Source of the DNA: BD1-7 clade bacterium
GTDB taxonomy: Bacteria; Pseudomonadota; Gammaproteobacteria; Pseudomonadales; DT-91
NCBI GenBank assembly: GCA_902705865.1
Contig: CACSIO010000012.1
Location: 62,001-126,000, forward strand
Direction of reading: 5' to 3'
Length of the DNA: 64,000 bases
The first letter of the stretch is position 1. Each line of letters starts with the position of its first letter. Position numbers and translations under genes: made by a program. Positions 33,519 through 62,632 of this stretch are shown here, in pieces. The notes beneath the pieces are model-generated. The model saw only the letters and a program-made list of their open reading frames with translations, searched no databases and was not told the DNA's origin.

Positions 33519-34175
33519 ATGCAACTTCCCTATGCGTTAGCTATTACCGCGCTTATTGGCGGATTGGGTTGGCTGGTTGCCGCCATACAGCCTAGTGGCC
33601 CAGCCCACGCTTTGGTGGCATATGTGCAAGAACGTAGCGATCAATCACAGGATGCAGTTGCTGGTATTGCCTCTGCTACGCAAACAACTTTGCCATTAAT
33701 GCAGCGTTTATCGAAACCGCAGGACTCGGGTGTCAAAGCCATTAACTTATCGGAAAAATCCCTGATAGGAGTAAAGCAGCAGATTAAAATCGCAGACGTA
33801 CAGAACCTTTGGGGCACGTTTCAGAATGACGCTACGTTGCAGGGGCGGCTTAATACGATGACGCCGGTAGCCTACGTGATTTATGAGTCGTTCAACGACT
33901 CTTTCGAGGAAGCCACAGTCACCATTGGTTATGAAGCCTCTGCGCTAATGGGTAGCGTTGCCGCGACTGAGCGTATCGAGCCGGGTCGTTATGAACAGTT
34001 ACTGGCGCCGAAGGTCTATGCTGACGAACGCTTCAACAGTGCCTGGTCAGGCATTCGATACAGTGATGAGTTAGAGGCAGTTGTTGAAGTACATGCATTC
34101 AACGCAAACGGTGATATTACATCAAGCCAGCTGTTAGCTTATTACCAAAATCCTAAAGAAGGAGCCGTTCAATGA
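33519..34175 (+). CDS. Membrane-anchored GyrI-like effector-binding domain protein
   Basis: A 218-residue product. One N-terminal hydrophobic helix (YALAITALIGGLGWLVAAI) anchors it. The C-terminal 150 residues (SLIGVKQQIKIADVQNLWGT, PVAYVIYESFNDSFEEATVT, IGYEA) fit the GyrI-like / bacterial-transcription-activator effector-binding fold, which captures small hydrophobic ligands. There is no DNA-binding domain. It overlaps the desaturase-like gene by ATGA, so the two are translationally coupled. The domain may bind the substrate or product of that enzyme (inference). Confidence 0.7.
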   Translation: MQLPYALAITALIGGLGWLVAAIQPSGPAHALVAYVQERSDQSQDAVAGIASATQTTLPLMQRLSKPQDSGVKAINLSEKSLIGVKQQIKIADVQNLWGTFQNDATLQGRLNTMTPVAYVIYESFNDSFEEATVTIGYEASALMGSVAATERIEPGRYEQLLAPKVYADERFNSAWSGIRYSDELEAVVEVHAFNANGDITSSQLLAYYQNPKEGAVQ

Positions 34176-35071
34176 ACCTGACGACTCTCTGGACTGAAGT
34201 ACAAGTTTACGCGCTTGAGCAATATATTGACTACATCGTGTTTTATATAGCGATGGCGTATTTTGCGATTGAGCTCTTTGTTTATTGGCTTAAAAAGCGC
34301 ATGAGCATGGATTTGATCGGCGATTCATTGACGAACTTCGTTACCCTCGGCGTAACATTGGCGGTAAATTATGCTCTGGCCGCGATCTTTTATGTTGCCG
34401 CATTTTACTGGATATACGAAAACATCAGCTTGAGCCATCTGCCCATTAATTTGTGGACGATTTTTGCCTGTGTTGTGCTGGCGGATGTTGCGTATTACTG
34501 GGAGCATCGCTTTTTGCATTCAGTGGGTATTGGCTGGGCGACCCACACAGTCCATCACAGCTCACCGCACTTTAATCTGTCGGTCGCATATCGACATGGC
34601 CCGCTGGATGGATTGTTTCCCTTTCTATTTCACGCGCCGTTGGTGATGCTGGGTTTTAACCCGATAGTGGTGTTCTTTTGTGAAGTGATGGTGCAATTGT
34701 TTCAGACCCTTTTGCACACTGAGACTATTCGTAAATTTCCACGCCCGATTGAAGCGGTTTTTAATACACCGTCGCATCACCGTGTGCATCATGCAACGAA
34801 TCGTCAGTATTTGGATAAAAACTACGCGGGTATCTTTATTATCTGGGATCGGATGTTTGGTACGTTTGCTGAAGAAAAAGAACCCGTGCGGTACGGTGTG
34901 TTTCCGCGAATTAATACGAACAATCCCTTTACTGTGTATTTTAAAGGATTTCAGGTATTGGGTTCGCGTCTTTGGAATGCGCCGAATTGGAAGTACCGTT
35001 TAAATCTATTGGTTAAGTCACCGACATGGGCTTGGCAACAAGAGCAGGTTTCGAAGCGTAACGTGGCATAA
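34172..35071 (+). CDS. Sterol desaturase / fatty acid hydroxylase superfamily protein
   Basis: A 299-residue membrane diiron enzyme. The histidine boxes are HRFLH (WEHRFLHSVG), HTVHHSS and HHRVHHAT, and four hydrophobic segments surround them, as in the FA_hydroxylase family. Such enzymes hydroxylate or desaturate lipids at the inner-membrane cytoplasmic face. It is coupled to the GyrI-like gene by a 4-base overlap. Substrate (fatty acyl, hopanoid or carotenoid) cannot be told from the sequence. Confidence 0.85.
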   Translation: MNLTTLWTEVQVYALEQYIDYIVFYIAMAYFAIELFVYWLKKRMSMDLIGDSLTNFVTLGVTLAVNYALAAIFYVAAFYWIYENISLSHLPINLWTIFACVVLADVAYYWEHRFLHSVGIGWATHTVHHSSPHFNLSVAYRHGPLDGLFPFLFHAPLVMLGFNPIVVFFCEVMVQLFQTLLHTETIRKFPRPIEAVFNTPSHHRVHHATNRQYLDKNYAGIFIIWDRMFGTFAEEKEPVRYGVFPRINTNNPFTVYFKGFQVLGSRLWNAPNWKYRLNLLVKSPTWAWQQEQVSKRNVA

Positions 35072-35112: not shown

Positions 35113-36141
35113 CTAATTACCGATAAATTTGGATAGCATTCGACGGCCGATAGAAGGGTGGAAATGAGTAATGTCATAGAACGGGCATGAAGTGAGCGGA
35201 TCGCAAGGAAGGCTTTCTCGTTCAATCATGTCTGTAAAATCAATGAGCTTTAGTTTGAGGCCGTCTTTAGAAAGTTCATTCACGATTTCGGATATGCTTT
35301 GCTTCCAATGAATATAGTTTTCGGCGTGTCCGGCCTTATCGAGTGCGTCCAAGTATTTTGAATGTGAAGGATTAATAAATATGTTTATTGAAATATTAGT
35401 TCGGTTTGCGGTTTCGAGAATTTCTGAAAACTGATCTATTGAGATTTGATAATACTCTCTGTTGTGAAATTTGTCGGATACAAAGAGGCGCTCGTAAGCC
35501 AATGCTTGTTGGTCAAGGTCTGTATCAGAAATATGTCGCTCGGGTTCGTTAATCAGAAAACCCGCCGAATTTCGTATAATACTATTACATGTCTTTCCAG
35601 AAAAAAGAATTTTGGCTGTGGCATTCATAGCTTTTGTCGAAAAAATTCCGTGTTTGTATACGATATATTCACTTTGTTGGCTGTAAGATGGAGTCGAGTG
35701 AGATCTTTTTTTTGTTGGCGAGACGAACATTCCATAGTCTAGGCCAAGCCATATGCGGTGTGGATTTTTGTTTTTCATCAAAGGAATGAGAATGCTATGT
35801 ACGTCATTAACACTCGCTCCGCTCATGTAAAGATTGATACTTTGAGTCGACATTAGGCTTTGCCAAATCTTTTGAGTAATACCTTCTTTTATTTTGGAGG
35901 TGCCTATTATTACGTCGTCGACGAATTCAGTTGTTAAAGGCAACAGCCGAGAAACAGAGTCGTCAGGATCTACCTTTACGCCATTCGCGCAGAGTGATGG
36001 AAAACCCCGATGTTCTTGCAGAATACCTAAGGGGTCAATAATCCACGCTGAAAACAATAAAATCAACGTGCCGCACAATGACAGAAAAACTACGGCTAAA
36101 AAATAGCGTTTTGATGTAATAGACTGGTTAGAACTGGACAT
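35113..36141 (-). CDS. SGNH-like membrane protein, DltD/AlgJ-type partner of the MBOAT
   Basis: A 342-residue protein with one N-terminal membrane helix (FLAVVFLSLCGTLILLFSAW), so the domain is periplasmic. Block I is VIIGTSKIKEG with Ser82, and the C-terminal FYDITHFHPSIG provides D323-x-x-H326, the SGNH catalytic pair. The middle INLYMSGASVND resembles block III. DltD, AlgJ and AlgX share this design and act with an MBOAT protein in transferring acyl groups to cell-surface polymers. The start overlaps the MBOAT gene by 14 bases, so the two probably form one transfer unit. It is the last gene of the operon. Confidence 0.75.
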   Translation of the reverse strand: MSSSNQSITSKRYFLAVVFLSLCGTLILLFSAWIIDPLGILQEHRGFPSLCANGVKVDPDDSVSRLLPLTTEFVDDVIIGTSKIKEGITQKIWQSLMSTQSINLYMSGASVNDVHSILIPLMKNKNPHRIWLGLDYGMFVSPTKKRSHSTPSYSQQSEYIVYKHGIFSTKAMNATAKILFSGKTCNSIIRNSAGFLINEPERHISDTDLDQQALAYERLFVSDKFHNREYYQISIDQFSEILETANRTNISINIFINPSHSKYLDALDKAGHAENYIHWKQSISEIVNELSKDGLKLKLIDFTDMIERESLPCDPLTSCPFYDITHFHPSIGRRMLSKFIGN

Positions 36142-37573
36142 AGATAAACCGCCCTGAGTTATCTATCGACATGACGCAGGCGAGTACTAATAAACTAAAA
36201 ACCAGAGCCCAAGGTATTGAAGAATCAAAGCTGATCCAGGATTTTTTTGCGACACCGGGAGGACGGTTATTGAGTGGGCGTAAATCGGTAGCAGTCCAGT
36301 ATTTGTAGAAAATCTGGTGTGTATCGGGTAACAACCATATAACAAATGCTGCCAATAAGAAGAGAGCCCATGCTCTGGAGGTGAGTATGGTGTGAGTATC
36401 ATTCCATACAAAAAGTGATTCATATACCGTACCAAGACCTTCTAATTCAGGCGTTCTGAAAACAATGCCGATCAGGCTATTCACCAAAAATGTCAATGCG
36501 ATGGCGCCAACGATCTTGAGCTTGGATGGAGATAGGGACGGGCCACTCCATTTTTTATGGTAATGGGTTAATAGCATGATGAGCGCCTGAATACCGCCCC
36601 AAATAACGAATGTGATACCTAAACCATGCCATAAACCGGATAAAAGCGCTGTTATGACTAGCGCTATTTCGGCTTTGATACGGGCTTTTCTAACAAGTGG
36701 AACGAATACGTGTGTTCGCATAAAAATCGCGAAACTAATATGCCAGCGGCGCCAGAGGTCAAACCGGTCTCTTGCCTTAAACGGTCTATCGAAATTGAGC
36801 GGTAAGTCGATATTAAAAATCTTTGCCAAACCAATTGCCATATCCGCGTAGGCTGAAAAATCCAAAAATAGTTGAAGCTGGAAGGCGAATATTGCGAACC
36901 ACATATCGAAAGTAGATACTTCAGCAGTACTGAAGACTTGTTCTATCGGTGAATATAGTCGATCGGCTAACAGTACTTTTTTGGCCAGCCCGAACACAAA
37001 GATACTCACGCCGATGGAGATGTTATCCCAAGAAACATTCCCTAACCTTCCTGAATCTAACTGCCGATTTATATCCTGATAGCGCACGATTGGCCCCATA
37101 ACCAACTGCGGAAAGAACGCGATAAAGAACAGATAATTGAGCTTGTTGACCTGCTTGATTTGTTTCGTATAGCACCCATAGACAAAGCCGATCTGTTGAA
37201 AGGTAATAAACGAAAGCGCTAACGGTATCAGTATATCATCTTCGATCCTAAACCCTGCACCATTGCCATCTATTAACGCTATCCACTTAAAACCAAGCAG
37301 ACACGCGATATTTATCGCAATAGATATCCATAATACAGCCAGTCGAGGCTGCTTCTTTGATGTATCGAGTTGGCTAAGTATTGATCCCGCCAGTAGGTTT
37401 GCAATTATCGAAAATACCAAAACGAGACAATTTTCGAAGCCCGAATAGGCGTAAAAAACCAACGACGAAACAATTAACAAGTATTGCCGGTGAGTTTGGC
37501 TTTTGAGTAAGTAGAAAAGTACGACGATACACGGGAGAAAAAGCCCGATAAATTCCCATGAAGTAAAATTCAT
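36128..37573 (-). CDS. MBOAT-family O-acyltransferase (AlgI/DltB-like)
   Basis: A 481-residue polytopic protein with about eleven hydrophobic segments. Family marks: FFPQLVMGPIVRY, DFSAYADMAIGLAK, NFDRPFKARDRFDLWRRWHI (conserved His278) and LSGLWHGLGI with the catalytic His316. MBOAT proteins move an acyl group from a cytoplasmic donor across the membrane to a partner or acceptor. The ATG overlaps the end of the heme-oxygenase-like gene by four bases, and its own end overlaps the SGNH gene. The acceptor is unknown; no alginate, D-alanine or cellulose genes are present. Confidence 0.93.
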   Translation of the reverse strand: MNFTSWEFIGLFLPCIVVLFYLLKSQTHRQYLLIVSSLVFYAYSGFENCLVLVFSIIANLLAGSILSQLDTSKKQPRLAVLWISIAINIACLLGFKWIALIDGNGAGFRIEDDILIPLALSFITFQQIGFVYGCYTKQIKQVNKLNYLFFIAFFPQLVMGPIVRYQDINRQLDSGRLGNVSWDNISIGVSIFVFGLAKKVLLADRLYSPIEQVFSTAEVSTFDMWFAIFAFQLQLFLDFSAYADMAIGLAKIFNIDLPLNFDRPFKARDRFDLWRRWHISFAIFMRTHVFVPLVRKARIKAEIALVITALLSGLWHGLGITFVIWGGIQALIMLLTHYHKKWSGPSLSPSKLKIVGAIALTFLVNSLIGIVFRTPELEGLGTVYESLFVWNDTHTILTSRAWALFLLAAFVIWLLPDTHQIFYKYWTATDLRPLNNRPPGVAKKSWISFDSSIPWALVFSLLVLACVMSIDNSGRFIYVQF

Positions 37574-38316
37574 AACGGTTGGGAAATTGTCCCCGGCTTG
37601 TGGCGGCGATTGAGTGTACCTCCGTGGCCTTCAAACCATGCCGCAGATCCTGCACTTGCTGCGTCAAGCGCCGCTTGTTGGAGTGCCGGCGTGGTAGCGT
37701 TTTCAATAACAAGATCCAAGGCTTCTTGGCCATGCCGACAGTCAGCCTCATTGTGCACAAAAAAGAACGCCAAGTCGTATTGTGAATATCCTTGTTTGGC
37801 GAGCGCTTCCATGATTTTTGCACTAGTAGAGGAAAACCGGAGTTCCTGACCAACTAGTAAATAAGCAATGGATTCGAGCCAGCTGTAGTCACGATTTATG
37901 GCAGCTATGGGAGATTCTGTGTTAGGTCGGGTGCGATGTTGGGACGTTATCTCTGTGTTGTCCGCTCCGCACGCGTTGGCAAATCGGATGGCCAATTCAG
38001 GATGACGCGCAGATGTATTTACAACCAGGCCCCGAGTTGATTTTAATGCGATACCTTCTTCTTCCATAAGGTTTCTAAGCAGTACAAGTCGAGCCTTGTC
38101 ATTCGGTGCAGTTTCGATCAGGTGGGCTAGTGTCGCACAAAATCTTAAAGCCCCGGCCACTAGATTAATCGAGTACCGCGTTAGCATCTCGGGTGGACAA
38201 CGGCCGGTATTAATAAGCCGCCAAAAGCGTGTTGATTCGAAGGGGTATTGATCAACCCTGTCATTTAGCGCTGCGCTAAATGCGTCTGGCGACAAAAGCT
38301 CAATAGGAGAATTCAT
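37570..38316 (-). CDS. Heme-oxygenase-like (TENA/PqqC/HDO fold) putative metalloenzyme
   Basis: A 248-residue all-helical protein. Ligand-like residues follow the pattern of heme-oxygenase-like diiron oxidases (UndA, BesC, SznF, CADD): E85/E86/E87 in NLMEEEG, E158 in LLVGQELRFSS, and H188-x3-D192-x2-H195 in FFVHNEADCRHGQ. The histidine usually seven residues after the first Glu is absent (IALKSTRG), so one site may be altered. Members oxidatively cleave or N-oxygenate small molecules. It lies between the radical SAM gene (17-base overlap) and the MBOAT gene (4-base overlap). A cofactor-free or mononuclear enzyme is an alternative. Confidence 0.75.
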   Translation of the reverse strand: MNSPIELLSPDAFSAALNDRVDQYPFESTRFWRLINTGRCPPEMLTRYSINLVAGALRFCATLAHLIETAPNDKARLVLLRNLMEEEGIALKSTRGLVVNTSARHPELAIRFANACGADNTEITSQHRTRPNTESPIAAINRDYSWLESIAYLLVGQELRFSSTSAKIMEALAKQGYSQYDLAFFFVHNEADCRHGQEALDLVIENATTPALQQAALDAASAGSAAWFEGHGGTLNRRHKPGTISQPL

Positions 38317-39175
38317 TCAATACGATACTCTCGAACATAGGTTCTACGAAACCATCAGGTGTAATTCTTCCTCTAGAAGAACTTCCTAAATCAGGCCATG
38401 CCGTTAGCTGAAACTTAATACTAGTGCCAAGCAGGTATTCTCGATGTGAGGGGGAATCTCCTGTTTTTTTCAAAGATTCAGTACTCTTGCCAAGCGCGTT
38501 GATAAGGCAATCTTCAAGGCCTTCGAGATCATACGGCGTTTCTTTCATATAATTGCCAATCGCGCCGACGGACCTCAGATGGATATCTTTAACGCCTCGT
38601 TCAAGCAGGTAATCGACAAATTCTGGAAGATGTGAATCATTGATGCTAGGGACGAGTATTGTACCTGTTGTTACATTCATTTTTTCAATCAACAGGTTGT
38701 CTAAAGCTTGCAGTTTTCGGTCTGCGCAAGCTAACTCGTCGATTGTTTCGTACAGATCATCACGAAGGCCGCCGTTGAGAGATAAGTATACTGTTCTAAG
38801 TCCAACAGACTTCAAACGTTTTACGTAGGAGTGGCGTCCAAATTTTAGGCCATTTGTTAGAACCACAGGTAGGTGGCCTAAAGCGCGTACTTTACTGATG
38901 ATCTCAGGAAGATCCTCTCGCATCGTTGGCTCAGCGCCGGCTAGACGAATTCGAGTTCTTCGGGGCAAACGTTCTAACACCGTATAGAGCCAGTCGACGG
39001 GCATGTCTGGCAAATCCCTGATCGGAATATAACAGTTCTTACATGTCATATTACATCGATGAGTAATATCGACAAACAGCGTAGAGAATGGTGATTCTTC
39101 AGGTAAGAAGCGCTCTTTTTGTTGTTTATATGATGACTTGAGTTCTGATAGTGTGTCGTCTTCCAGTACAATCAC
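38300..39175 (-). CDS. Radical SAM enzyme without SPASM domain
   Basis: A 291-residue protein with cluster cysteines C41, C45 and C48 (HRCNMTCKNCYIPI), the GAEPTMR version of the GGEP SAM-binding motif, and barrel strands VVLTNGL, TVYLSLNGG and TGTILVPSIND. There is no C-terminal SPASM cysteine cluster, and the last 25 residues (RGRITPDGFVEPMFESIVLN) keep only the strand that usually follows. MoaA/NifB-like cores of this size modify peptides or small molecules. The gene starts 71 bases after a 52-residue ORF and overlaps the heme-oxygenase-like gene. ATG chosen as first start with a complete domain. Confidence 0.88.
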   Translation of the reverse strand: MIVLEDDTLSELKSSYKQQKERFLPEESPFSTLFVDITHRCNMTCKNCYIPIRDLPDMPVDWLYTVLERLPRRTRIRLAGAEPTMREDLPEIISKVRALGHLPVVLTNGLKFGRHSYVKRLKSVGLRTVYLSLNGGLRDDLYETIDELACADRKLQALDNLLIEKMNVTTGTILVPSINDSHLPEFVDYLLERGVKDIHLRSVGAIGNYMKETPYDLEGLEDCLINALGKSTESLKKTGDSPSHREYLLGTSIKFQLTAWPDLGSSSRGRITPDGFVEPMFESIVLNEFSY

Positions 39176-39246
39176 TTCGATAGCCCTTAGTTCAACCTAA
39201 CATAGATTCAGCATCAGAATATCAGCTCGAAGGTACATTTCAATGC

Positions 39247-39405
39247 TCAGTATCGATTAAACGGATGATCCGATGTATCTGAAATGTCCAGCCTTGCTTT
39301 AATCCAAGCCAGTGTGGTCAGATCGCTGATCGTGGGGATTGAGTCGGTGCCTGCCTCGTACTTGTCGAGCGTATAGACTGTGATTGCGTGACGAAGAATG
39401 TTCAC
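39247..39405 (-). CDS. 52-residue ORF upstream of the radical SAM gene (candidate peptide substrate)
   Basis: GTG at 39405, TGA at 39247. The product (NILRHAITVYTLDKYEAG near the start, SDTSDHPFNRY at the end) has no cysteine, mixed composition and no signal. It sits 23 bases after the membrane-protein gene and 71 before the radical SAM gene on the same strand, where precursor peptides of radical-SAM RiPP systems often lie. No ribosome-binding site is evident; a TTG at 39426 is an alternative start. It could also be a gene remnant. Confidence 0.3.
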   Translation of the reverse strand: MNILRHAITVYTLDKYEAGTDSIPTISDLTTLAWIKARLDISDTSDHPFNRY

Positions 39406-39428
39406 TTTTTGGAAAATAGACTGCAATT

Positions 39429-40040
39429 CTATTCGAACGAAATAGGCTGAGGTTTTTTTTCTAACATAATATATCGATGAAATATTATGTGAGTGAATCC
39501 GAGGGTGGTAGTTAGTATCGCTAGATAGAAACTGATTATCTGCCAGGCTGGCGTTGAAAAATTGAGTGACTTCGAAACACCAAGAACAATAGGAAACATC
39601 CAGCTAATAAAAGATATGACGCCGACTGCGATGATTGGCGTTATTTTTTTGTGAGGTAAAACGTCAAACAAGGCTGAGCCAATAGCCCGTTTTAACTCAG
39701 GTAAAACGTAGGTGTGAACGAGAAACCCGTTCAGCGATAGTATGAATACTATGGCCATTTTGGCCCACACTTTTTCGTTGCCTAAGTATTCAGGTTGGTA
39801 AAAGTAATAGAATGCAACAAACGCCAAACCCGACAGCCATAATAAACAAAGGCCCGAGATGACAATGTTCGAAACAAACTGGATAACGTCATATCGTTCT
39901 GATGTTAATACCTGATTTTTGAGATCCTTCAACAACATGGCGTCGAGGATCCAGGCACCACCAACGCCCATTGCTAGACCGGCAATGTGAATAAAAGTAA
40001 TGATGGATTTGAGGTTTGTGGTATCGATGAGTGCTTCCAC
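39429..40040 (-). CDS. Five-helix membrane protein of unknown function
   Basis: A 203-residue inner-membrane protein. The first helix contains FIHIAGLAMGVGGAWILDAM, with a conserved-looking His and Gly-rich turn as in CopD-like or DUF2214-like proteins; four more hydrophobic segments follow, ending in FTHIIFHRYIM. The histidines could bind heme or metal, but this is not shown. It is the first gene of the minus-strand series leading into the radical SAM unit, though the gap of 253 bases to the radical SAM gene makes co-transcription uncertain. Confidence 0.65.
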   Translation of the reverse strand: MEALIDTTNLKSIITFIHIAGLAMGVGGAWILDAMLLKDLKNQVLTSERYDVIQFVSNIVISGLCLLWLSGLAFVAFYYFYQPEYLGNEKVWAKMAIVFILSLNGFLVHTYVLPELKRAIGSALFDVLPHKKITPIIAVGVISFISWMFPIVLGVSKSLNFSTPAWQIISFYLAILTTTLGFTHIIFHRYIMLEKKPQPISFE

Positions 40041-43913: not shown

Positions 43914-45803
43914 GTGACCAAATTTAGAAAAGACATAAACGGTCTGCGTGCAATTGCAGTTGCTGGCGTTATGGTGTTCCACTTTCAACCGACTTGGTTA
44001 ACCGGTGGGTTTGCCGGCGTCGATGTGTTTTTTGTCATATCCGGTTTTTTGATGACATCGATCATTTTTCGAAGTCTCGACTCCGGCCAGTTTAGTTATA
44101 CGGAATATCTTTCAGCCCGCATTAATCGGATTGTTCCTCCCTTGCTAGTGCTGTGTGCTGTATTGCTTGCATTCGGCTTTTGGTTCCTGCCTCCGTCTGA
44201 ATACTCGCTCCTGAGTAAACATGTATTGGGGAGTATTGGGTTTGTATCGAATGGTGTTTATCTAACTGAAGCCGGCTACTTTGATAGTGTTTCCCACGAT
44301 AAGTGGTTGCTGCATACGTGGTCGCTTTCGGTGGAGTGGCAATTCTATTTGCTCTATCCGCTCGTTCTTTGGGGGGCTAGCCGCATACTAAAACCTTCCT
44401 TGTTGAAGGCCATGATACCTCTGGGGGTATTACTGAGTTTCGGCCTCTGTGTTTTTGTCAGTCATGTATGGCCGTCCGGAGCATTTTACCTTTTACCCGC
44501 CCGCGCATGGGAAATGCTGCTCGGAGGTATGGCATTTTTATTCCCGGTGGCATTGTCAGCTAAACAAGCGCGCGTTGTGTTCTATTCTGGCTTGGCGATG
44601 ATTGTTGGGTCATTTGCCTATTTTTCTTCAAAAACTCTGTGGCCTGGTTATTGGGCAACAATTCCTGCAATCGGTACCTATCTGATTATCATGGCTCGGT
44701 GTGAATCCTCAGTGTTGACGAACGTCAATACGATACAAAGCCTTGGCCGTTGGTCTTATTCGATTTATCTCTGGCATTGGCCGATAGCGGTTCTGTTTTT
44801 TAAACTTGGATTTAATACAGCTACAAATTTCGTACCGCAAGTGGTGTTGTCGATTCTTTTGGGGTTTGTCAGTTTTCGCTATGTGGAACGTTTTCGGTTC
44901 GCCAAACGATCGGGTTTTTTACGGTTGGTTCGGTCTCCGGTAAACGTCATTTGTGTGTGTATTCTTACTTGTGCCGTGGTTGTTTTTGAATTTCGAGGGA
45001 TGCCTGACCGAGTTTCTGCGCAAACAGTCTTGATCGAACGAAGTCTGAAAAACAGCCCCATGCGCGGGAAATGCCATGCGGGAGTGGGTAAAGAAGTTGC
45101 TCTAGAGAACACCTGTGTCTATTTTGGCGACACCTATGAATGGGCCATTGTCGGTGATAGCCATGTCGTTGAGCTAGCGTATGCATTGGCGAAACGATTA
45201 GAAACAAAAGACATCGGGCTTAAGCACTTCAGTTATGGCCAATGTAGCCCGTCCTATCAGCGTGACGATACACTCTGTTCAGACTGGTATAGCCGCACCA
45301 TCAAGCATATTATCGACGATCCTGAGATCGACACCGTGGTGGTAAATCATCGCTATGCACTGGCGCTTTTTGGCGAGAATGCAGAGTTCTACCCCGAAGT
45401 ATTCGTCGAATCGAGTATGGGCGAACAGGCTCTTGTTATTCGCGCGATGGATGACTTGATTCGAACTTTGGCAGCGAATAAAAAACGGGTAATCGTGTTG
45501 GGGCCAACACCGGAGTTGGGGCATTCGATTCGTCATTATATTACCCGTCAATTTTTAAAAGGGGACTCACTCGACAGCGTTGTTGGCACCGACCGTTCTT
45601 ACTTTGATGCCAGAACTTCCCCCATTACCGAATATTTCGGAGCAACCACATTTCCTAGTAACGTAGATATCGTCGACATCGCCGATATCTTCTGTGATGA
45701 AGCAACATGTTACGCGATCCGCGACGGTAAACCTTTGTATTATGATGACGACCACCCATCGTTGATCGGTGCAGCGAGAATGGCAGAGCGGATAAGGCTA
45801 TAA
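43914..45803 (+). CDS. OafA/YrhL-type acyltransferase with SGNH domain
   Basis: A 629-residue protein. Acyltransferase-3 (about 1-340): FRKDINGLRAIAVAGVMVFH with the conserved RAxAV...H, GFAGVDVFFVISGFLM, and around ten helices. A linker is followed by an SGNH domain (about 395-629): EWAIVGDSHVVELAYAL supplies GDSH and YYDDDHPSLIG the D-x-x-H pair. Such two-domain enzymes O-acetylate surface glycans such as O-antigen or peptidoglycan. The GTG at 43914 is used, without an obvious ribosome-binding site. No glycan cluster is adjacent. Confidence 0.9.
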   Translation: MTKFRKDINGLRAIAVAGVMVFHFQPTWLTGGFAGVDVFFVISGFLMTSIIFRSLDSGQFSYTEYLSARINRIVPPLLVLCAVLLAFGFWFLPPSEYSLLSKHVLGSIGFVSNGVYLTEAGYFDSVSHDKWLLHTWSLSVEWQFYLLYPLVLWGASRILKPSLLKAMIPLGVLLSFGLCVFVSHVWPSGAFYLLPARAWEMLLGGMAFLFPVALSAKQARVVFYSGLAMIVGSFAYFSSKTLWPGYWATIPAIGTYLIIMARCESSVLTNVNTIQSLGRWSYSIYLWHWPIAVLFFKLGFNTATNFVPQVVLSILLGFVSFRYVERFRFAKRSGFLRLVRSPVNVICVCILTCAVVVFEFRGMPDRVSAQTVLIERSLKNSPMRGKCHAGVGKEVALENTCVYFGDTYEWAIVGDSHVVELAYALAKRLETKDIGLKHFSYGQCSPSYQRDDTLCSDWYSRTIKHIIDDPEIDTVVVNHRYALALFGENAEFYPEVFVESSMGEQALVIRAMDDLIRTLAANKKRVIVLGPTPELGHSIRHYITRQFLKGDSLDSVVGTDRSYFDARTSPITEYFGATTFPSNVDIVDIADIFCDEATCYAIRDGKPLYYDDDHPSLIGAARMAERIRL

Positions 45804-61708: not shown

Positions 61709-62632
61709 TTAGTCGTCACAGACGACAGATTCGGAACGATAGATTGGCGGCAGTGCACATTGCTCAGGTGTCTTTGCGGTTATTACTGCATCTGATTCAA
61801 TATGAACTTCACGAAACGCCTTAAAATTCTCAGGCAATTCTGCCAGGCGGTCTACTTTATGCGCAGTGGGAGTTGAACTGATCGAGTAAATGGTTGGTTC
61901 ATTGGTAACACGTATTTTGTGCTCGCTCGTGAAATACCCTAAGTCTAGGTGTCCTAGCAGTATGTCGTATTCTCCTTCCGGTAGCTTAAAACGCGAAAAC
62001 TGCTTTTTGTCCAATGAAAATCCAGCGCCGGTAGATAGAGTGATATCGATTTGATTGCGGAATAGTGAGCCGTCTGCATTGAAAATAGTGATCTCTGTCA
62101 GTGGGGTATCTTTGTCGAGATGTTCGAGTGACTGAGTTTTTACCGCTTCAATTTTTTCCGGAGGCTCCCCGGCAATCGCAAGCTTGTATCCTGACATCTC
62201 GGCTTTTGCCGTACGTTCATCCACCTCTGTGTAGGTTTCACGGCAAATACTCTCGCATAAAACAAAACTCATCGAACATCCAGAACTCCCGTTATCGAGT
62301 GTTTGAATTTTTACGAAGTGAGTCGATCCCGCGTCAAATGACATCACGTGACCGTCGCGCTGTGCGGCTGACTTTTTGTTGCCCAAAATAACGTTGCCAG
62401 CGTTCATTTTGACCACCGCGTAAGTGTTTTCGGCCAAACGATTCTGATTAGCATTGTTTACTGTGAGATCGATAGCGTAAAGTTCGCCGCAATTGGCAGG
62501 TTGCCGATAGAAATAGACTGCTGTTTGATCGTTTTGTGGTTTTTGGGTAGGGGTATTCGCATCATAGGCTGGCCCTGTGGAAACACAGCCTGCGATAAAC
62601 AGGCTGTATGCCAATGGGTAAAAAATTCGCAT
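61709..62632 (-). CDS. DUF2846-like lipoprotein
   Basis: A 307-residue lipoprotein. Lipobox IAGC (Cys16) and a short linker are followed by TAVYFYRQPANCG, typical of the DUF2846 beta-domain start. A second half has TPLTEITIFNADGSLFRNQI and YDILLGHLDLGYFTSEHKI, which may be a repeat of a similar beta fold. The protein is exported; four Cys in NGSSGCSMSFVLCESICRET may form disulfides. Confidence 0.7.
   Translation of the reverse strand: MRIFYPLAYSLFIAGCVSTGPAYDANTPTQKPQNDQTAVYFYRQPANCGELYAIDLTVNNANQNRLAENTYAVVKMNAGNVILGNKKSAAQRDGHVMSFDAGSTHFVKIQTLDNGSSGCSMSFVLCESICRETYTEVDERTAKAEMSGYKLAIAGEPPEKIEAVKTQSLEHLDKDTPLTEITIFNADGSLFRNQIDITLSTGAGFSLDKKQFSRFKLPEGEYDILLGHLDLGYFTSEHKIRVTNEPTIYSISSTPTAHKVDRLAELPENFKAFREVHIESDAVITAKTPEQCALPPIYRSESVVCDD

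Follow-up and report, generated by a model that had tools for sequence, protein, structure and literature searches.

Why should a radical SAM enzyme and a heme-oxygenase-like protein be encoded in overlapping reading frames with two proteins of a membrane acyl-transfer type? This question is raised by a locus of a BD1-7 clade bacterium (GCA_902705865.1, contig CACSIO010000012.1), of which positions 62,001 to 126,000 of the forward strand were analysed. This stretch of 64,000 nt is referred to here as the window. Four ORFs lie on its minus strand in the order radical SAM (rSAM), heme-oxygenase-like dimetal/diiron (HDO), MBOAT, and SGNH, and they overlap by 17, 4, and 14 bases. Their coordinates (35113–39175) match the overlaps that the original prediction for this DNA had claimed. 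The features are as follows.

38300..39175, minus strand: rSAM enzyme (291 aa, GTG start, PF04055; C-terminus GRITPDGFVEPMFESIVLNEFSY)
37570..38316, minus strand: HDO protein (248 aa, PF14518)
36128..37573, minus strand: MBOAT acyltransferase (481 aa, PF03062)
35113..36141, minus strand: SGNH acyltransferase, from predicted fold and catalytic residues (342 aa)
35113..35930, minus strand: exchanged SGNH domain, residues 71–342 (other allele in the sister species G003)

The family calls for the first three proteins were borne out by Pfam, with Radical_SAM at 55 bits, Haem_oxygenas_2 at 56 bits, and MBOAT at 80 bits, each above its cut-off.

Limits of the operon

Two further genes had been predicted to lead the operon, and neither was retained. 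The short ORF at 39247–39426 (59 codons) is not a gene, because a congener (G003, 97% identical) has lost the start codon of this ORF and carries an in-frame stop in place of a Trp codon. The membrane protein at 39429–40040 was not counted in the unit because it lies 253 bp upstream of the rSAM gene and because yhbY stands in that place in the distant copy described below. Within the genus, this membrane protein is present only in both genomes that carry the unit.

No RNA families or tRNAs were found. A promoter scan gave a site count below chance expectation, and the anti-phage defence search returned weak viperin-core matches and nothing more.

It may be noted that a fused AT3-SGNH surface O-acyltransferase is encoded on the opposite strand about 5 kb upstream of the operon (43914–45803), and is kept in G003. 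A fatty acid hydroxylase gene (34172–35071) is convergent to the operon and has a neighbour at 33519–34175. In G003 the hydroxylase gene is broken, a deletion of ~170–200 bp having removed its 5' end together with the end of the neighbour.

Recurrence of the four genes in other genomes

The original prediction proposed a search for the same four families in the same order in other genomes. In whole-genome searches, this arrangement was found in G003 (locus L008) and in G031, a genome of a different family within the same order that is also public as SBFY01000034.1. The rSAM gene of G031 is split across two contig ends, and an exact 95-bp overlap joins the halves to full length. Gene order in G031 is yhbY, 3 nt, rSAM, HDO, MBOAT, SGNH, and then a convergent greA into which the last gene of the unit runs; the flanking run, read from the ORFs, is presumably dnaK-dnaJ-dapB-carA-carB-greA / yhbY-rlmE-ftsH. 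As these flanks leave no spare room, the unit consists of exactly four genes, and the G031 copy holds no precursor peptide, carrier protein, ligase, glycosyltransferase, or exporter. The window operon has no DltA ligase or DltC carrier gene either.

Identities between the window and G031 are 50% for rSAM (over its part on contig C167), 29% for HDO, 44% for MBOAT, and 21% for SGNH, and the flanking genes are unrelated. In an MBOAT tree, the copies from the unit form one clade (99/100), apart from the other MBOATs of G031 and from a stand-alone pair of G001. The shared linkage is hence the result of a long common history or of transfer as a unit. Between the window genome (G000) and G003, dN/dS is 0.08 for rSAM, 0.38 for HDO, 0.15 for MBOAT, and 0.24 for SGNH; purifying selection acts on all four genes.

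The unit is rare. It is present in 3 of 391 genomes of the order, two of the three being sisters, and in samples of the class (369 genomes) and the phylum (398 genomes) only the window's own genome carries it. In three of the five genomes sampled in the genus it was not found, one of these being only 84% complete. A scan of public contigs with strict patterns, which may miss relatives, matched only SBFY01000034.1 ('Gammaproteobacteria bacterium isolate M0112'). The unit was not found on viral contigs, and a search of the class of G867, run without a positive control, gave no match. In the open-access literature, most subscription journals being outside the scope, no paper combined three of the terms MBOAT, radical SAM, heme oxygenase-like, and SGNH. 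Together with the distant syntenic copy, this upholds the view of one undescribed four-gene unit.

It could be argued that each half works independently and that only regulation or transmission links them, an rSAM-HDO small-molecule pathway lying beside a surface O-acetyltransferase. MBOAT-SGNH pairs are indeed found elsewhere without rSAM and HDO genes. Against this, the same four genes occur in the same order and with overlapping frames in two families, between unrelated flanks, and no copy of the homologous rSAM was found outside the unit-bearing genomes among several hundred sampled. We consider such a separation distinctly unlikely. Since the four genes are found again, as a self-contained set, in a distantly related genome, they probably act together, placing a chemical group on the cell surface.

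The MBOAT-SGNH half

The MBOAT protein retains His278 (in RRWHIS) and His316 (in WHG), both invariant, and ends in an FXYXXF acyl-shuttle hexapeptide, F476-I-Y478-V-Q-F481 (FIYVQF) in the window and G003 and FIYYQF in G031. Every full-length MBOAT compared has such an end, except a dlt-like MBOAT on contig C5 of the window genome. PatA, which depends on the universal His, acetylates itself on the Tyr of its C-terminal FXYXXF hexapeptide, and the group then goes to its SGNH partner PatB; among the Dlt proteins, DltX carries this motif (PMC12148441).

The SGNH protein has an N-terminal membrane helix, an exported domain from about residue 60, and the residues S82, D323, and H326. Ser82 and His326 are invariant, and Asp323 is Glu in G031. 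No family of Pfam or NCBIfam matched the protein, so that the earlier SGNH call stands on its predicted fold. The AlphaFold2 model had a pLDDT of 56, higher in the core strands and helices. Foldseek placed PatB first (7tlv, E 2.1e-4), and a second structure comparison gave DltD (6pfx_B) a Z of 11.2 over 226 residues and PatB a Z of 11.1, with GDSL esterases tied. Because ordinary GDSL esterases tie with DltD and PatB, the model supports an SGNH fold, from which transferase activity does not follow by itself. The FXYXXF shuttle, the catalytic His, and the match of the SGNH model to PatB and DltD, taken together, strongly support a PatAB-type trans-membrane acyl transfer pair, in agreement with the acyl-transfer function predicted for these two genes.

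Stand-alone MBOAT-SGNH genes with the same shuttle ending, and without rSAM or HDO, were found in G031 and in G001, a genome of the same genus as the window.

L045 2427–6562 (G031, contig C66): one MBOAT and two tandem SGNH genes
L046 6922–9619 (G001, contig C112): MBOAT-SGNH pair

The nearest named MBOAT-SGNH pairs on plasmids lie within glycosyltransferase or O-antigen clusters, which favours a surface glycan as the acceptor. One plasmid pair adjoins an acyl carrier protein gene; hence the neighbourhoods do not fix the class of donor.

The window's genome also has a separate dlt-like operon on contig C5 (L011 1857–9060), with two AMP-ligases, an SGNH-like protein, the MBOAT that lacks the FXYXXF end, and a large protein without a Pfam match.

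The rSAM-HDO half

The rSAM enzyme has its CX3CX2C motif at C41/C45/C48 (CNMTCKNC in the window, CNMECPNC in G031). It has five Cys in all, and as just two of them (C150 and C223) lie beyond the motif, it lacks auxiliary clusters of the SPASM type. No SPASM domain was detected, as had been predicted. The best NCBIfam matches were both under cut-off, TrsS with 101 bits (cut-off 490) and Tes with 67 bits (cut-off 450), and BlsE was among the weak family matches.

In the HDO protein, E86, H105, E158, H188, D192, and H195 align with E81, H88, E142, H174, D178, and H181 of CADD, which we take to be the metal ligands of that enzyme; all six positions are invariant across the three copies. The sacrificial residue of CADD is Lys152 (PMC11965152). 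Its position is occupied by Ile in the window and by Ala in G031, and Tyr27 of CADD falls outside the aligned region. With six ligands kept and Lys152 lost, the HDO protein looks like an intact dimetal oxidase or oxygenase, and its candidacy as a self-sacrificing pABA synthase was rejected. A structure prediction, suggested along with the original prediction, was too poor for use (pLDDT 48), though Foldseek still ranked PqqC and CADD first.

Homologues of the HDO protein elsewhere did not qualify as further copies of the unit. Those of the phylum search (G973, G1038, G867, G1002, G1066) and those on plasmids of Caballeronia and Cupriavidus adjoin neither the rSAM nor the MBOAT of the unit, and that of G043 lies within a siderophore-like cluster. 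A second HDO subfamily, the closest to the HDO of the unit in the phylum samples, is found on a plasmid of Caballeronia sp. SBC2 (L026 4949–12872) and at similar loci (L028–L031). The Caballeronia gene adjoins an aldehyde dehydrogenase and 2Fe-2S proteins, in what looks like a catabolic cluster.

An rSAM beside a PqqC-like protein recalls PqqE and PqqC, and weak matches to these families were obtained. In a peptide pathway of this kind, the rSAM would modify a ribosomal precursor, the HDO protein would finish it, and MBOAT-SGNH would cap it. The G031 copy leaves no place for a precursor gene, having 3 nt ahead of the rSAM and a last gene that runs into greA; in the window, the short ORF is broken in the sister species; and the rSAM has no SPASM domain. 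A peptide-modification version, which the original prediction had allowed, is thus disfavoured, and we regard a PQQ-like pathway as very improbable.

An exported SGNH domain replaced between two sister species

When G000 and G003 were compared, the operon was found to be 95–100% identical, except that from about 35900 to 35000 of the window the identity is only 60–75% (L008 13270–14200). For SGNH residues 1–70, dS is 0.04 and there are zero amino acid changes, and for the remaining operon dS is 0.04–0.08. For residues 71–342, dS is 1.19, dN 0.29, and dN/dS 0.24. Both versions of the protein have 342 aa, and the breakpoint lies just past the membrane anchor. Fast protein evolution alone cannot lift dS 15–30-fold. 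Hence, the exported SGNH domain is replaced by a long-diverged allele, itself under purifying selection.

Should acceptor recognition reside in the SGNH domain, it is the acceptor that varies, against a constant rSAM, HDO, and MBOAT; this would place rSAM and HDO, indirectly, on the donor side. Alternatively, the acceptor may be what these two enzymes produce or alter, for instance an unusual sugar, a lipid, or a small molecule, to which MBOAT-SGNH adds an ordinary acetyl group. Some rSAM enzymes act on sugars, and BlsE is one of the weak matches noted above. The stand-alone pairs of G001 and G031 carry the same shuttle motif without rSAM or HDO, and acetyl-CoA, the donor of PatA (PMC12148441), is presumably theirs as well. 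However, the unit contains no glycosyltransferase, ligase, or exporter, and rSAM and HDO stayed as they were when the SGNH domain was swapped. Mainly on account of this exchange we prefer the donor side, and consider action on the acceptor rather unlikely.

Proposed route of the acyl group

The reading that we favour, with a probability of roughly 45%, is a self-contained surface-acylation operon in which the acyl group comes from rSAM and HDO, or is modified by them, and the SGNH domain sets the acceptor. In a first step, rSAM and an O2-dependent HDO would draw on core metabolites to produce or modify a small carboxylic acid or acyl thioester. The motifs and the precedent of PatA suggest that MBOAT would then take the acyl group from a cytoplasmic thioester onto its own Tyr478 in FIYVQF. 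The thioester is probably that of CoA, a guess at the donor form made because the unit has neither carrier protein nor ligase. The fold and catalytic residues suggest that Ser82 of the SGNH protein, anchored in the membrane, would receive the group from the FIYVQF peptide, and that SGNH would transfer it to an acceptor outside the cytoplasm, most likely a glycan of the cell surface. By analogy, the route would run from thioester to Tyr478, to Ser82, and to the acceptor. Of the predicted sequence of events, an enzyme pair making a group that is then transferred at the membrane, the transfer half is backed by motifs and fold, and rSAM/HDO as the source is plausible. To our knowledge, few HDO or rSAM enzymes have acyl thioester substrates.

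A bolder version, possible and put forward more tentatively, is that rSAM and HDO build a new acyl group dedicated to the acyl-Tyr shuttle and decorating the surface, the SGNH domain being exchanged between strains as the surface polymer changes. If true, this would be the first cassette to combine the making of an acyl group by oxidative or radical chemistry with its transfer across the membrane. For the MBOAT-SGNH pairs of bacteria, acetyl and D-alanyl are the main known groups, and a unit with radical and oxygenase enzymes of its own suggests that unusual groups made for the purpose can also travel by the shuttle. With four genes and both ends defined, the cassette is compact enough for heterologous expression, and the SGNH exchange between sister species offers a natural experiment on acceptor choice.

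Comparison with known systems

Among NCBIfam models, TrsS and Tes match the rSAM core best, but the rSAM of the unit lacks their long N- and C-terminal parts and scores far under their cut-offs. PqqE-PqqC of PQQ synthesis likewise brings together an rSAM and a PqqC-like protein; unlike it, the unit has no PqqA precursor or SPASM domain, and its scores are 17 bits for PqqC (cut-off 240) and 39 for PqqE (cut-off 381). The self-sacrificing pABA synthases CADD and NePabS share the HDO fold family and the six aligned metal ligands. The HDO protein differs from them in its score (48 bits against a cut-off of 200), in not keeping Lys152, and in a 12-residue insertion between ligands 1 and 2.

Exopolysaccharide O-acetylation by AlgI-AlgJ/X and WssH-WssI also relies on a Gram-negative MBOAT-SGNH pair, but the unit has no alginate or cellulose genes nearby and has rSAM and HDO. 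In DltB-DltX-DltD D-alanylation, the MBOAT is related to that of the unit (TIGR04091, 160 bits, under the cut-off of 375), and DltD aligns with the SGNH model over 226 residues; the unit differs in having no DltA, DltC, or DltX, its shuttle being fused to the MBOAT. The peptidoglycan O-acetyltransferase PatA-PatB shares the C-terminal FXYXXF acyl-Tyr shuttle and the universal His of the MBOAT, and an SGNH partner with one N-terminal anchor, PatB being the top Foldseek match. The SGNH protein of the unit is unrelated to PatB by sequence search, and to this pair of activities the unit adds an rSAM and an HDO enzyme.
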